Virus record (IMG/VR): IMGVR_UViG_3300018065_000054
Location: 1 to 31,224 of that record
Source of the DNA: a virus
Length of the DNA stretch: 31,224 nucleotides
Reading direction: 5' to 3' (one strand)
The translations under genes were made by a program, and so were the position numbers. This document shows, piece by piece, positions 2,113-28,312 of this stretch (position 1 is the stretch's first letter; each line of letters begins with the position of its first letter). The notes beneath the pieces were generated by a model. It did no database searches. It saw only the letters and a program-made list of their open reading frames with translations, and was not told the DNA's origin.

Positions 2113-2738
2113 GCTGACTGCCTCATGTGGTAGTCCTTTGTTTTTACAATCACGAACCGGTTCCCATCTCGAATAATTCGGCTTGAGATTCGGACATCGT
2201 TTTCAGCGATGGCTTGCATAGTGGCGTTGGCGGTCATTATGGTCCATTGATCCATCCGGCACCCAAGAAGTGTTGACAGCTTTTCACTGCTGAATTCCGT
2301 TTGCCTGTCGGCCCATACATCATCCAGATAAAGGAACGGCCAACGTTTCATGTCGTTGTATTGATCGTAAGCATTCCCGTCCCTGAGCTTGTCAACGAAG
2401 TCAGGCCAGTAGACCTTGCTCGGATAGTAATCAAGACCCGTGTGGTTGAAATTTGGGCGGTTCTGAACCCATCCCCAAATCCGGTCACAAATCATCGTTT
2501 TGCCTGCTCCACTGGTCCCCATAAAAGTTATCCAGTGGGGAGCCATTCCTGCTTTGATGGCGTTTGCCCAGTTGGCAGTGGTTCGGACCATTTCCTCGAT
2601 GCTGTAATCACCGAATGTTTCAACTCCAAGCCATTCAGCCCAGGTTTGAAGTGTCCCTTGTTTTTGGTGCATCGGGACAGCCTGATTGCCTTCAATCTGC
2701 GTCATGGCGCCCTTCAATGCTTGTTGAACTGTTTTCAT
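2109..2738 (-). CDS. DnaC-like AAA+ helicase loader
   Basis: 209 residues. Walker A is GTSGAGKT at 74-81 and Walker B is FLYLDD at 135-140. A sensor-1-like TAN lies at 169-171, and arginines at 183, 187 and 190 include the likely arginine finger (RISSRIIR). Length and order match the ATPase core of DnaC/IstB-type loaders, which deliver the replicative helicase to an origin. The N-terminal 60 residues would contact helicase or initiator. It sits in a tight operon between the DUF1376-like initiator (4-base overlap) and the DnaA domain IV protein, a complete phage origin-opening and helicase-loading set. No helicase gene is seen, so the host DnaB is probably used. Confidence 0.85.
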   Translation of the reverse strand: MKTVQQALKGAMTQIEGNQAVPMHQKQGTLQTWAEWLGVETFGDYSIEEMVRTTANWANAIKAGMAPHWITFMGTSGAGKTMICDRIWGWVQNRPNFNHTGLDYYPSKVYWPDFVDKLRDGNAYDQYNDMKRWPFLYLDDVWADRQTEFSSEKLSTLLGCRMDQWTIMTANATMQAIAENDVRISSRIIRDGNRFVIVKTKDYHMRQSA

Positions 2739-3607
2739 GGCCTTCCTGCCTGTTGTTGAGCGAATGCCTCGTAATCATCGGCGAGCCCTTCGTTGGCGGT
2801 GCCGGCGTTTCGATTCACAGCGTTGGGGTTCTTCTTTCCAGAGGGATGACTGCCATTGGCCTTCGCCTCCCTGGTTTTGGGTTTGCCTTCAGCCTCCCAC
2901 CATCGAATTTTTTTGATTGCGAAATGACGCCATTTCCGAATCTGCGTCCCCTTGATGATCCAGCCTGCGGATTCCATTGAATCGAACCAGTCTTCGGCGA
3001 TCCACTTGGGGCATCCATGCAGCTCGAAATACTCGACAACCTCATCAAGACCGTTCGGAAGGTCGATTTCGCAAGGGGTGTACGAACCCGTCAGCGGCTT
3101 CTTTTGGGTCTTGATGGTCTTGGCTTCTGGCTTCTGGCTTCTGGCTTCTGGTAATGCTTGACCATCCGTTGGTTTTTGCTTCACGCTTTGCTGAAGCAAA
3201 CTTGAAGCATTTGCTTCAGCACTTGCTTGACCATTTGGTTTACCTCTTGCTCTAGCGCTTGCTTGACCACCTGCTCGACCGGCGGCACGGCGCTTTTCAG
3301 ACACTTGCCCAAACTCTTGCCAGTCTTTTACCATTCGGTTGCTTCGAATCGTCCATGTGTCGTCATCGTTTTCAATCACCTCACCGACGCCACCATCCAA
3401 CAACTCTGTCACGAAGCTCGGGAATTCTACCGACGGAATTCCAAGGAGGCGTGACCATACGGGTTGGGTGTATGTGGCTTCACCGGGTGTTTGTGATTTT
3501 GAGAGACGACAGATAACGCGCATCCAAAGACCTTGCCCTTGAAGGGAGAGAGTGGCGGTATCTTCGAGCCAATCTGCGGTGTAGAATTTTAGATATGTGA
3601 ATCCCAT
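2735..3607 (-). CDS. DUF1376-like replication initiation protein
   Basis: 290 residues. The N-terminal 95 residues (MGFTYLKFYTADWLEDTATLSLQ onward) match the winged-helix pattern of DUF1376/YdaU-type phage replication proteins, which open with a phrase such as W...Y..D....T..LS....G.Y. A middle low-complexity linker of about 85 residues is rich in Ala, Gln, Lys and Arg and contains repeats. The C-terminal part (170-250) has helices and many tryptophans (WIAEDWFDSMESAGW, WRHFAIKKIRWW), like DnaD/DnaT-type domains that bind DNA and the loader. The start at 3607 is preferred over 3625 because MGFTYLKFY begins the domain and the ATG follows the preceding stop directly. The gene probably recognises or remodels the origin and recruits the DnaC-like loader encoded next. 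Confidence 0.75.
   Translation of the reverse strand: MGFTYLKFYTADWLEDTATLSLQGQGLWMRVICRLSKSQTPGEATYTQPVWSRLLGIPSVEFPSFVTELLDGGVGEVIENDDDTWTIRSNRMVKDWQEFGQVSEKRRAAGRAGGQASARARGKPNGQASAEANASSLLQQSVKQKPTDGQALPEARSQKPEAKTIKTQKKPLTGSYTPCEIDLPNGLDEVVEYFELHGCPKWIAEDWFDSMESAGWIIKGTQIRKWRHFAIKKIRWWEAEGKPKTREAKANGSHPSGKKNPNAVNRNAGTANEGLADDYEAFAQQQAGRP
3121..3151. repeat. 7-bp tandem repeat within the replication initiator gene
   Basis: TGGCTTC is repeated four times without mismatch (3121-3148), followed by TGG. On the coding strand it reads GAAGCCA and specifies the linker EARSQKPEAK. Because 7 is not a multiple of 3, slippage by one copy would shift the frame in the linker and remove the C-terminal domain. 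Degenerate GAAGCA and TTGCTTGACCA copies continue to about 3280. Confidence 0.95.
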
Positions 3608-3608
3608 A

Positions 3609-3860
3609 TCAATCCTCATCCACAAAAGATTGAACCTGTTTTTCGAGGTCTGAGACGCGATCGCTCAAACTGTCCGACAGGACGGCCAGGAGCTCCGCGC
3701 ATTTGACCTTGCGCAGGTCTCTCGAGCAGTGCTCGTTGATGGTTTGATAGATGACGCCAGAAACGGCTTTGACCAGCTCGAAAGAGGCCGAAAGCTCTTG
3801 GCGTTGCATGAAGTGTCTCAACTCGCTTGGGAGCCGAGACGGATCTGATATGTGCGGCAT
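3609..3860 (-). CDS. Small helical hypothetical protein, first gene after the structured RNA
   Basis: 83 residues, mostly helical. Residues 11-45 form one amphipathic stretch, and 55-80 (AELLAVLSDSLSDRVSDLEKQVQSF) form a likely coiled coil, so it may be a dimer. Two cysteines at 45 and 54. I do not recognise the family. The open frame continues upstream to 4112, but that part overlaps the structured non-coding block and has no coding character, so the ATG at 3860 (MPHISD) is chosen. Its stop touches the initiator gene start, making it the first gene of the replication operon. Confidence 0.6.
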   Translation of the reverse strand: MPHISDPSRLPSELRHFMQRQELSASFELVKAVSGVIYQTINEHCSRDLRKVKCAELLAVLSDSLSDRVSDLEKQVQSFVDED

Positions 3861-4108
3861 TGGTAGTGCCTTTCTTGGCCCGATTGTCCAGGCAAAAAGA
3901 CGACCGCTACCGGAAGGGACAATCCTGTCCTCTCGCAGCACCACCTGGTGAGAGTAATCCGATAGCGGTCGTGTTTTGTCGTTTTTGTAGCCATACGGTT
4001 GGTAGCCGTTTAGACAATTGGCAACTCGGCGATTGTCCACCGAGCTGACGGCAAACAAACACAGGGAGCCTCCAAAGTCAACGACCGAATTTGTATGGCA
4101 GGGTAAAA
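3861..4108 (-). ncRNA. Structured leader or small RNA candidate between rusA-like and replication genes
   Basis: 248 bases without a convincing gene but with dense pairing potential on the minus strand. In RNA order (4108 to 3861): an H-type pseudoknot at 4046-4012, a weak 4-bp hairpin at 4009-3995, an A-rich linker, then a 14-bp stem (arms 3972-3959 and 3913-3900). That stem closes two inner hairpins and is followed by CUUUUUG. The long stem is perfect only on the minus strand, where one position is a G-U pair; the plus strand has a C-A mismatch there. A 10-base direct repeat CGATTGTCCA occurs at 3881-3890 and 4030-4039. It could be an attenuator or riboswitch-like leader of the replication operon, a trans-acting RNA, or an origin with secondary structure. 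No known RNA family is recognised. Confidence 0.55.
3894..3972 (-). terminator. Terminator-like three-way stem with U-run
   Basis: The 5' arm ACGACCGCUAUCGG (3972-3959) pairs over 14 bases with CCGGUAGCGGUCGU (3913-3900), with one G-U pair. Directly after it comes CUUUUUG (3899-3893). Inside are a CUCU/CACC-GGUG/AGAG hairpin with a 5-base bulge (3954-3930) and a GGACA-GGAU-UGUCC hairpin (3930-3917); these share base 3930, so one loses a pair. The 45-base insertion is large for a simple terminator and suggests conditional control. Confidence 0.5.
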
Positions 4109-4531
4109 TCATGTGGCTTCAGTGATGGTGATCTTTACGCCGGGCTCTCGTTTTGTGGCCCAATATTTCGCGCTGTTGAGAACGGTGACCTGAGAGTCAT
4201 CTCCCCACACCTGAGCCTTGGAAAGCGCGTCCATGACCGCTTTGGCGAGGTTGTCGATGTCGGGTGTCTGGATGTGGCGTAAGGGTGAAGAATCCTTCAA
4301 AACAGCGGCGTGTCGTCCCGTTCGAAAATGGCTTTTGGGCCGCGGCATGAAAAACATCAGATTGAGAATGATCGGTCCTTGGATGGTTTTGATCTTGTGT
4401 TGCCTGGCGGCGATCGCGATGCGCGTGCGCCAAGCCTTGATCCCCTTGGCTGGGGTATAGACCCCGCCACGAACCGACCGTCGGGGCCTTGGTTGCGCAA
4501 CTGGATTTCCTTGGACCTGGAATGTAATCAT
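4109..4531 (-). CDS. rusA: RusA-family Holliday junction resolvase
   Basis: 140 residues, the normal length. The catalytic block PDIDNLAKAVMDAL is diagnostic. D91, D93, K97 and D112 (in WGDDSQV) reproduce the spacing of E. coli RusA D70, D72, K76 and D91. The N-terminal GNPVAQPRPR matches the family's dimer and DNA-contact strand. It cleaves four-way junctions symmetrically as a homodimer, resolving recombination or replication intermediates before packaging. It lies 7 bases downstream of a tiny membrane protein gene and is the last gene before the structured interval. Confidence 0.92.
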   Translation of the reverse strand: MITFQVQGNPVAQPRPRRSVRGGVYTPAKGIKAWRTRIAIAARQHKIKTIQGPIILNLMFFMPRPKSHFRTGRHAAVLKDSSPLRHIQTPDIDNLAKAVMDALSKAQVWGDDSQVTVLNSAKYWATKREPGVKITITEAT

Positions 4532-4538
4532 GGCTCTC

Positions 4539-4634
4539 CTATCCCCTCGTGAAGATCACCCAATACATCCACCAAGCTCCGAGCACGAAGCCAAGGATCA
4601 AACCGGCGATGAGAATGAAGTATGGATGTGTCAT
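4539..4634 (-). CDS. 31-residue single-span membrane protein
   Basis: A short frame with start ATG at 4634 and stop at 4539. It encodes MTHPYF, then a long hydrophobic stretch (about residues 5-27, with GLILGFVLGAWWMYWVIF) and a positive C-terminus TRG. Composition and the 7-base gap to rusA support a real gene, perhaps a small phage membrane peptide. No family is recognised and no function is implied. Confidence 0.6.
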   Translation of the reverse strand: MTHPYFILIAGLILGFVLGAWWMYWVIFTRG

Positions 4635-6787: not shown

Positions 6788-7119
6788 TGTCTCATTTCTT
6801 CCGGCGTGGGAAGGTGTCCGCTGTTGGCATTCGGTATTTCTTTGCATGTGATTTTCCCTAAAAGTTGATTGTTGAGTGATGTGATTGCTCGATGAGCCTG
6901 TTCAGGCGCCATGGGAAACTCGAGCGTCTCCCCGTCTTTGAACTGAATCGTGATCCCCTCGCTGCTCATGGAATAAGTCATCACCTGATCCGGATTGATC
7001 TCGGTTTTCCAAATCCTGATTATTTTCTTTTTTCCCTGCCGAACGAACATCGGATTCTTCCACAGGGACTTTGGGATCTTTGCCCCCTTGCGGGGCTTCG
7101 TTTTCAAAAGTGTTTTCAT
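6682..7119 (-). CDS. Hypothetical protein in heavily overlapping frames
   Basis: 145 residues. The first 90 residues look coding: a basic start (MKTLLKTKPRKGAKIPKSLW), then strands (KKIIRIWKTEINPDQVMTYS, ITIQFKDGETLEFP) and a helix (APEQAHRAITSLNN). The last 40 residues are basic and low in structure. The first 218 bases overlap the tail of the preceding gene and the last 106 overlap the start of mazG, each in a different frame. The function is unknown. The strand-rich KTEINPDQV...YSMSSEGITIQFKDG region might be a small beta domain. Confidence 0.6.
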   Translation of the reverse strand: MKTLLKTKPRKGAKIPKSLWKNPMFVRQGKKKIIRIWKTEINPDQVMTYSMSSEGITIQFKDGETLEFPMAPEQAHRAITSLNNQLLGKITCKEIPNANSGHLPTPEEMRQCPKPRNRIRKVRGMSWWTRQIFSQEAAVASHLEG

Positions 7120-7801
7120 CGTTATTGGGTTCGGGTTCTTCGTGGGCCACCACGCCAGTCATCGCCTCAAAGACGCGCTTGTAGAATTTGCGAGCGGCTT
7201 TGCCCAACATCCCGTCGACGCCGATGAATTCGTCCGTCTTCACGGGGATCTCGGCGGTAAGTTCGCCGGCGGTCTGGTTGATCTTCCAGGAGCACGAGCA
7301 TGGCACGATGATTCCCCCGTTCTTGCTGACGGGGACGCCCTGCTCCGGCTTCCACCACTTGAACCCCGGGAGTTTCTTAATGAGGTATTCCCAGCCGTTT
7401 CGCGTGATGTAGCAATTGCCGGCTATGATGTTGAACTGGTTGTTGACGTATTGGACGCCCTTCAAACATGCCTGCATACAGCAATCGCGAATCACCTCCC
7501 GAGGATATGGCTGAGGATTCGGATTGCGTTTTGTGGGTTTCTTTGGATCCTTGTCCGTGAGAAATCCAAACGGCTGATTCATCATCGGCATGATGACGTC
7601 GAGGATTTGATCGTCGAATGCCTGACGAAATTCCTGCATTGCTTGCGCGAGCAAGATCGCTTTCGACAGCGGCGCGTCCGGCGCGTTGGCCTGCAGGTAG
7701 AGTCCGTGCGCTTGCATCGCGACCTTCTCGAATCGATCAACCTTTAGTGCGATGGCCATTTCTCTTGACCTTTGGCGTTCTTTGGTGGATGTTTGGCTCA
7801 T
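6902..7801 (-). CDS. Possible RecT/Erf-like single-strand annealing protein
   Basis: 299 residues from MSQTSTKERQ at 7801. The centre (about 65-225) contains FNIIAGNCYITRNGWEYLIKK, then a strand-rich segment (IIVPCSCSWKINQT, LTAEIPVKTDEF) and GMLGKAARKFYKRVFEAMTG. This strand-then-helix layout with a G.FNIIAG.CYIT phrase recalls phage annealing proteins of the RecT/Erf group, and the neighbourhood (RusA, early region) fits. The last 75 residues are highly charged, probably disordered, and overlap another open frame. I could not confirm the family; it could also be an unrelated DNA metabolism protein. Confidence 0.45.
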   Translation of the reverse strand: MSQTSTKERQRSREMAIALKVDRFEKVAMQAHGLYLQANAPDAPLSKAILLAQAMQEFRQAFDDQILDVIMPMMNQPFGFLTDKDPKKPTKRNPNPQPYPREVIRDCCMQACLKGVQYVNNQFNIIAGNCYITRNGWEYLIKKLPGFKWWKPEQGVPVSKNGGIIVPCSCSWKINQTAGELTAEIPVKTDEFIGVDGMLGKAARKFYKRVFEAMTGVVAHEEPEPNNDENTFENEAPQGGKDPKVPVEESDVRSAGKKENNQDLENRDQSGSGDDLFHEQRGDHDSVQRRGDARVSHGA

Positions 7802-7840
7802 AATTTGTGGAGATTCGTTTCTTGCGTTTTTTCCTTTCAC

Positions 7841-7899
7841 GCCCCGGTTCGCCCCGGGGCTTTTTTGTTCCGGGGAGGCGTCGTGCCCTCCCCGGTTTT
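7841..7899 (+). terminator. Two tandem terminator-like hairpins facing the plus strand
   Basis: Hairpin one: GCCCCGG (7841-7847) pairs with CCGGGGC (7854-7860), followed by six T (7861-7866). Hairpin two: CCGGGGAGG (7870-7878) pairs with CCTCCCCGG (7887-7895), followed by TTTT. The T-runs follow only on the plus strand, although all neighbouring genes are on the minus strand. The CCGGGG arms of the two hairpins could also cross-pair. Confidence 0.7.
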
Positions 7900-7921
7900 C
7901 GTTGTATCTCTCAATTTGCTT

Positions 7922-8332
7922 TTACTGGGATTCCGCGTTGGCTTCCTTTCCTTTGGGGGTTTTCTTCGGTTTTTCCGGCTTGGTGGCTGGGCCGACACTG
8001 CTCGTGCCAGCCTTTTTGCCGGTGACGTCGGTGAGCTGGGCGGCCCAATGGTCACCGCCTGATTCCACGAATTCCAAAAGGCGATACGACTCGACAAGCA
8101 AAGCGGTCGCGATGCCGCGCCATTCGGGCTTGAGCCGAGCGATGGACTGCTGCGTCATGAATGCCCGACCGAACGGCCCCTGCTCGCAGTCGCGATACCA
8201 ACGGACCGATCCGTCTGCACGGGTAAGCTTGCTCAGGTGGATTTGGAGATCAGCGTTGCCGACTTTTTCGAAAGCGAACGATGCGCCTTTGTCATGCACC
8301 GTTCCTGTTTTTTGGATGAGTTCTGTTTGCAT
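7922..8332 (-). CDS. Hypothetical early protein
   Basis: 136 residues, unrecognised. The N-terminal part alternates strands and turns (TGTVHDKGASFAFEKVG, ADLQIHLSKLTRADGSVRWY). A helical middle follows (IARLKPEWRGIATALLVESYRLLEFV), and the C-terminal 30 residues are a Lys/Pro-rich disordered tail. It begins 5 bases after the stop of the small membrane protein gene at 8337, in the same early operon. The size and tail would suit a nucleic-acid-binding accessory protein, but this is only inferred from composition. Confidence 0.65.
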   Translation of the reverse strand: MQTELIQKTGTVHDKGASFAFEKVGNADLQIHLSKLTRADGSVRWYRDCEQGPFGRAFMTQQSIARLKPEWRGIATALLVESYRLLEFVESGGDHWAAQLTDVTGKKAGTSSVGPATKPEKPKKTPKGKEANAESQ

Positions 8333-11910: not shown

Positions 11911-11948
11911 TAAATTAAGGTTTCCTTTTTGGCAAGAAATAAATTAAG
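11911..11948. repeat. 29-bp-spaced direct repeats at the repressor start
   Basis: TAAATTAAG occurs at 11911-11919 and 11940-11948, with similarity extending over 17 bases (14 identical). They straddle the TTG start of the Xre-type gene at 11929, so they could be operator sites for autoregulation. Confidence 0.55.
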
Positions 11949-12258
11949 ATTTTCTCCTACAAAATTCAGAATGGAGTGCGCACGCAAGAATGTGACGCAA
12001 TCCCAGGTTTCTGAAGCACTCTCTGTATCAACTGGTACACCGTCCAATTGGCAGAAAGGAAAGAGCACGCCAAGCGAGGAGACTATGGTAATGATCGCGA
12101 AGGCTTTATCATTGATTGCCTCTACAGGAGATGGGCCGACCTCAAAGCAAGCAAACGAGAACCAGATCGTCCTGCAGAAGAAGCAAACCGCCTCCGCCCG
12201 GAAGAAAGCCAGGTGGAAGACATCCGCCAGCGTGAGAAGCCGCCCAAAAAGCAATTGA
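11929..12258 (+). CDS. Xre-type helix-turn-helix repressor
   Basis: 109 residues from a TTG start. Residues 8-60 follow the HTH_XRE pattern: FSPTKFRMECARKNVTQSQV, SEALSVSTGTPSNWQKGKS (recognition helix with TGTPSNWQ), then TMVMIAKALS. TGDGP after the domain is typical of CI-like phage repressors. The C-terminal 40 residues are basic and lack the LexA-type peptidase, so induction would not be by classical self-cleavage. It is the only well-supported regulator on the plus strand, opposite to the lytic genes, as expected for the lysogeny repressor. An ATG start at 11971 would cut into helix 1, so TTG is preferred. Confidence 0.75.
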   Translation: MARNKLRFSPTKFRMECARKNVTQSQVSEALSVSTGTPSNWQKGKSTPSEETMVMIAKALSLIASTGDGPTSKQANENQIVLQKKQTASARKKARWKTSASVRSRPKSN

Positions 12259-14022: not shown

Positions 14023-14496
14023 TCAGACTGCCTCTTCGAGGCTCAAATCCATGAGATCGATGAAAATTTCCAGGTCGTTGGGCGTGAATCCAGCTTGATC
14101 GAGCTGGGCGACCTCGTTTTCCCGTAGTTTGGGGAGAGTGAAGATTTCGACTTCGATCTCCTCCTTGGCTAGGGCGCTCCACTTATCGTTCCGAGTTTCA
14201 ATCTCCTTCCTGAACTCTTCGCGCGCGGTTTCCTTGGCCTTTCCTTTCGAGTCTTTGATTTTCTTGAGCAACTCTGCTTTGAGTGACTGCTCCCAGTCGC
14301 CCCAAATCTCGTTGATTTTTTCCTGAAGTGGCTCTAGCGCTTCCTTGATTTTGGTCGCTGTTCTGGAACATGCCCAAGAGAAGCGGATCGGGAGCGCGAA
14401 TTTCGCTTTCCTTGTGGACTGGTCGATTTCGCTGATGGAATGGATTGCGTTTCTGAGCAACAACGCCTTTTCAATGGTGATCTTTGCAGTTTTCAT
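14023..14496 (-). CDS. Coiled-coil protein, DUF1617-like
   Basis: 157 residues. Residues 1-110 are long charged helices (LQEKINEIWGDWEQ, AELLKKIKDSKGKAKETAR). The end (EEIEVEIFTLPKLRENEV, then FTPNDLEIFIDLMD) resembles the end of DUF1617, a family of short phage proteins near tail-fibre and lysis genes. It is the last gene before the terminator. A chaperone or accessory role for the fibre genes is possible but not shown. Confidence 0.55.
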   Translation of the reverse strand: MKTAKITIEKALLLRNAIHSISEIDQSTRKAKFALPIRFSWACSRTATKIKEALEPLQEKINEIWGDWEQSLKAELLKKIKDSKGKAKETAREEFRKEIETRNDKWSALAKEEIEVEIFTLPKLRENEVAQLDQAGFTPNDLEIFIDLMDLSLEEAV

Positions 14497-27981: not shown

Positions 27982-28312
27982 CGGAGCTCCTTCTTTTGGT
28001 CAAAAGTTCGATCTTCTCCGGTCGTCCTCCCGGGATGGGTAGAACGGCTAGGATGTCGTATTCAGTGGAGCCCTCGACGACCTTGTCCTTGGGCGCAATC
28101 CCGCTCGTATTGGAGTTGAACCAAATGGTGAATTTTGTTTCGGTCTCCGATGCGATTTGCTGGGCTTGCTCGTATTCTTGGCCGCGCAGGTGCTTCTTTG
28201 CCGCCCATTCGGTGGCGACCGTGGACCATGATTCATCCTGCGCACCCATGGCATTTGGTGTGCGCGAAGGAGTCTGAATCACGATTTTGGTGTCCAGGTC
28301 GCCGGGGTTCAT
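27974..28312 (-). CDS. Head closure (head-tail joining) protein
   Basis: 112 residues. GDLDTKIVIQTPSRTPNAMG, then WSTVATEWAAKKHLRGQEY and TKFTIWFNSNTSGIAPKDKV, is the SPP1 gp16/Phage_H_T_join pattern (G.l..ri.i......d..G.....W......wA.i..l.g.E). It plugs the connector after packaging and docks the tail. ATGA overlap with the lipoprotein gene upstream. Confidence 0.9.
   Translation of the reverse strand: MNPGDLDTKIVIQTPSRTPNAMGAQDESWSTVATEWAAKKHLRGQEYEQAQQIASETETKFTIWFNSNTSGIAPKDKVVEGSTEYDILAVLPIPGGRPEKIELLTKRRSSDA

Follow-up and report, generated by a model that had tools for sequence, protein, structure and literature searches.

A candidate terminator-like RNA element with a folded loop ahead of the replication genes of an environmental phage

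Gene content and arrangement

The window analysed here is the whole of IMG/VR virus record IMGVR_UViG_3300018065_000054 (31,224 bases), and the phage is known from this one environmental genome. Integrase, HNH endonuclease, capsid and tail genes were found in the window, a gene content that fits a temperate tailed phage. A leftward block includes the DUF2303 gene, a rusA-like resolvase gene, a gene for an 83-aa protein, a primosomal/initiator-type gene, a DnaC-like helicase loader gene and a small DnaA-like gene (Table 1). The integrase gene, together with the repressor-like gene on the opposite strand, is consistent with a temperate phage whose early operon runs leftward. None of the scanned genes was recognised as coding for an antitermination protein. 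Two further features of the block are a possible 31-residue membrane peptide (MTHPYFILIAGLILGFVLGAWWMYWVIFTRG) on the minus strand immediately 5' of rusA (4539–4634), and a series of short tandem-like repeats (CTTCTGG and related units) within the initiator gene (3117–3250).

Table 1 Features of the window. Positions are those of the 31,224-base record.
Feature	Position	Strand	Description
Small gene, DnaA C-terminal-like helix-turn-helix	1798–2112	minus	PF08299, E 2.1e-5, below Pfam cut-off
DnaC-like helicase loader gene	2109–2738	minus	phrog_50, E 1.1e-8
Primosomal/initiator-type gene	2735–3607	minus	phrog_9327, E 3.2e-9; downstream of the element
83-aa gene	3609–3860	minus	Unknown family; product predicted to be mainly helical
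Open frame, 167 codons	3609–4112	minus	Includes the 83-aa gene; ATG overlaps the rusA stop as ATGA
Hairpin at ribosome site	3868–3901	minus	U-run pairs with AGAAAGGC, a possible ribosome-binding site of the 83-aa gene
Terminator-like element	3893–3977	minus	A-rich 5' flank, stem P1, two enclosed hairpins, tail CUUUUUG
Folded loop	3917–3953	minus	Hairpins P2 (CUCU...AGAG) and P3 (GGACA-GGAU-UGUCC); MFE and centroid agree
Rod domain	3990–4099	minus	110-nt imperfect hairpin closed by GCCAUAC/GUAUGGC, G-U pairs abundant
rusA-like resolvase gene	4109–4531	minus	phrog_140, E 3.5e-34; Pfam RusA, E 1.1e-27; upstream neighbour of the element
Repressor-like gene	11929–12258	plus	
Second near-perfect helix	13966–13999	minus	Resembles a strong terminator of the classical type, with a 14-bp stem and a 6-nt loop followed by CGGTTTTT

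Structure of the gap between rusA and the 83-aa gene

The stem P1 of the terminator-like element consists of 15 bp (3972–3958 paired with 3914–3900), 14 of them Watson-Crick pairs and one a U-G pair, at the position of which the plus strand has C-A. A previous, sequence-only reading had described arms of 14 bp that pair fully on the minus strand through one G-U and are mismatched on the plus strand; the pairing holds, while the length had to be corrected. On the minus strand, the minimum free energy (MFE) structure is a three-way junction that carries two hairpins; at -40.6 kcal/mol (z -4.32) it was more stable than any of 200 shuffled sequences. This fold and the sequence itself confirm that the arms enclose two hairpins and are followed by CUUUUUG, as had been claimed. 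The spacer of P1 measures 43 nt and is itself folded, and the U-run is short (one C, then five U). The inverted repeat has near symmetry and T-rich sequence on either side. Taken by itself, this 96-nt piece leaves the strand unfixed: its plus strand, which likewise runs into T-rich DNA, folds just as well (z -4.87). The argument for the minus strand from the lone U-G pair is weak for this reason.

Formation of the hairpin at the possible ribosome site of the 83-aa gene would compete with the two outermost P1 pairs. The ribosome-site match of this gene is only moderate (-3.2 kcal/mol), and in this phage such matches fail to tell genes from non-genes; masking of the site by the U-run is therefore no more than a possibility.

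The whole window was scanned for helices of at least 14 pairs, with no more than one G-U allowed and spacers no longer than 70. Only two were found, both on the minus strand and both with a T-tail, while the random expectation was 0.13 per strand and a helix with a T-tail occurred in none of 60 random sequences; the terminator-like character thus goes beyond chance. The second helix lies directly 3' of the gene at 14023–14496, as a terminator at the end of a unit would. The length of P1 by itself is unexceptional once wobble pairs are free, and genome-wide structure scans placed the element among the top few of the minus strand without its being unique, some of its equals lying inside genes.

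Upstream of the element lies the rod domain, absent from the sequence-only description. Its z-score was -4.65 on the minus strand versus -0.97 on the plus strand, hence it folds well as a minus-strand RNA only. In 130-nt tiles (400 shuffles) the rod gave z -3.8 to -4.0 on the minus strand, among the top few of 1,112 tiles but without being unique, as places just as strong occur at 7785 and at 28197, the latter inside a gene. The minus strand at 7785–7940, around the start of the gene at 6902–7840, is strongly structured (z -4.47, 400 shuffles). As the rod adds to the terminator-like stem, structure extends over all of the 252-nt gap that separates rusA from the 83-aa gene, with z -4.31 on the minus strand versus -1.98 on the plus strand.

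Within 157 bp, three copies of GGACAATC are present (3882–3889, 3917–3924 and 4031–4038), the minus strand carrying two of them and the plus strand the third, and the strand of the P3 hairpin is complementary to the other two copies. Nothing is concluded from the repeat, given that the word was chosen post hoc and that a 10-nt word recurring within 961 nt is close to what chance predicts.

Occurrence in related genomes

No homologue of the RNA segment was found in IMG/VR, GTDB genomes, phage records or Rfam. The segment remained unmatched in Rfam at the gathering and at a relaxed threshold, where one chance-level match fell outside it, and a covariance-model search of 66 loci and 367 genomes disclosed no relative. 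Protein queries comprised the initiator, loader, DUF2303, rusA, tail protein and 167-codon frame against viral contigs, the initiator and tail protein against genome contigs, several proteins against phage records, and the initiator against about 1,200 whole genomes; these searches returned protein relatives only, none of them with the RNA. One viral contig with 100% identity spans the structural genes and the terminase, not the RNA region. A pattern scan with the P1 core found two places, one of which is a run of core repeats, and both were discarded, as neither is accompanied by the shared replication genes.

The nearest initiator proteins found were from a Verrucomicrobiota sample (30–35% identity), the label being the phylum of the sample's centre genome, an Opitutaceae record. 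In two Verrucomicrobiota prophages rusA and the initiator gene are contiguous, without the segment of about 500 bp, and at one of the two loci an ATPase-type gene follows them. The segment is thus not general to rusA/initiator operons, and the RNA segment and the 83-aa gene would have been gained in this phage or lost in the prophages. Chlorobiaceae phage CV-1-33, with a similar gene order, has a 370-nt gap before its DUF1376 gene (z -3.12), in which a branched stem around two hairpins is followed by U-rich DNA (4480–4549 of that locus, L099). This structure has no sequence similarity to the window and other DUF1376-type initiators mostly lack a long upstream gap, so that the likeness may be a coincidence.

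Discussion

The element, known from a single sequence, is a structural prediction. We put at about one half the probability that the segment is an intrinsic terminator with a long folded loop inside the leftward early operon, which limits transcription of the replication genes and makes read-through necessary. The stem, T-tail, position, orientation and rod domain are shown by the sequence and its predicted folds, and we infer termination and its conditionality. In favour of this reading, the element is one of two near-perfect long helices of the window, both on the coding strand and with T-tails, and the other lies where a terminator at the end of a unit would be expected; its A-rich 5' flank, T-rich 3' flank and stability (z -4.32) point the same way. 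The fold, the gene annotation and the helix scan also support the earlier claim that it lies, in the direction of transcription, ahead of the 83-aa, initiator, loader and DnaA-like genes. Against it, the folded loop exceeds the usual size for an intrinsic terminator and the U-run is short, related prophages that share the gene order lack the element, the scanned genes include no recognised antitermination protein, and no homologue was found.

If termination occurs, the element would limit transcription of the 83-aa gene as well as of the replication genes, whose expression would depend on read-through. A simple scan for sigma-70-type sites found no minus-strand sigma-70-like promoter between 1500 and 10000, hence read-through seems needed. 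In the folding of partial transcripts, P1 formed once its 3' strand existed (14.6 of 15 nt paired), and no stable internal antiterminator appeared, the 5' strand of P1 pairing upstream over no more than 0.36 of its 15 nt, which makes a self-contained switch unlikely. The conditional behaviour proposed by the sequence-only reading is thus supported only indirectly, by the apparent need for read-through, and read-through would have to come from one of two sources. RNA polymerase could be modified by the phage or the host, as in lambdoid early operons, or ribosomes could restart at the ATGA after rusA, translate through the stem and hold it open. Alternatively, termination may simply be partial and constitutive.

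A tentative, rather improbable alternative is a free-standing or processed phage RNA of about 210–220 nt, made up of the rod and the three-way junction with the terminator as its 3' end, whose action could be in trans, or through binding to RNA polymerase or to a regulator. The sequence-only reading had already named a processed phage RNA, and the rod upstream adds to its case. The two domains are adjacent, do not overlap, are each strongly folded and fill the intergenic gap almost exactly, and the rod is confined to the minus strand; yet no promoter-like site, Rfam match or covariance-model relative was found, and a few coding places equal the segment in strength and strand asymmetry.

It is unlikely that the 167-codon frame is an ordinary protein gene and the structure incidental in its mRNA. 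The ATGA overlap with rusA resembles two other gene overlaps in the operon, and the 84 upstream codons are open, which occurred by chance in 3.9% of shuffles. A general coding classifier, trained on other phage and prophage loci, gave the frame an equivocal 0.47, which lies inside the span of scores for genuine genes of this phage (rusA, 0.20). On the other hand, codon usage of the upstream codons scored -0.154 bits per codon, lower than in any of the 94 gene windows (genes, 0.28, sd 0.12), and AlphaFold, whose run without an alignment makes this weak evidence, gave a mean pLDDT per ten residues of 29–46 for residues 1–100 and of 52–73 for residues 101–167. Codon usage and predicted structure thus argue against a protein in the first half of the frame. 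Moreover, the frame has no homologue in viral contigs or phage records, and a near-perfect stem with a T-tail is not expected by chance. A middle position is possible, in which the frame is translated mainly so that ribosomes keep the stem open.

We regard as quite improbable that the segment represents a new class of phage structured RNA of about 210 nt, with a G-U-rich rod and a three-way-junction terminator, controlling the replication genes in cis or acting in trans. Least probable of all is that the element bounds an inserted cassette of structured RNA and 83-aa gene as a transcriptional, possibly bidirectional, insulator: the 500-bp segment is missing between rusA and the initiator gene in the two prophages and the near-symmetrical inverted repeat has T-rich sequence on either side, but no recognised opposite-strand gene converges on the element, the terminator precedes rather than follows the 83-aa gene, and no cassette promoter was found.

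Intrinsic (Rho-independent) terminators occur inside early operons of temperate phages, for example the lambdoid phages. The element shares with these an inverted repeat that leads into a T-run, oriented along transcription and placed before replication genes, and its stable stem passes directly into a U-run on the transcribed strand. Unlike these, the short loop of about 3–10 nt is replaced by the 43-nt spacer with two hairpins, a rod lies upstream and no antiterminator gene was recognised. The phi29 packaging RNA is a phage RNA with a three-way junction, from which the element differs in its terminator-like tail, in the type of phage and in having no Rfam match. Riboswitch-like attenuators likewise place a branched structure beside a T-run, ahead of potentially regulated genes; the mutually exclusive terminator and antiterminator folds of such leaders are not found here, since no stable alternative antiterminator fold was obtained, nor is there a match to a known Rfam class. 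An RNA-based example of lambdoid antitermination is the HK022 put RNA, of about 70 nt with two stem-loops near the early promoters, which suppresses termination (PMC9378689). Like put, the element belongs to a structured RNA within the early operon of a phage, one with the potential to act on the polymerase that transcribes it. It departs from put, described as a pair of successive stem-loops spanning about 70 nt close to an early promoter, in having a closing stem and a T-tail and in lying about 8 kb from the repressor gene.

If the terminator reading is right, the element would be a gate between the recombination and replication genes in a phage without a laboratory model, and would exemplify a terminator in which the loop forms a folded domain with the potential to sense something.
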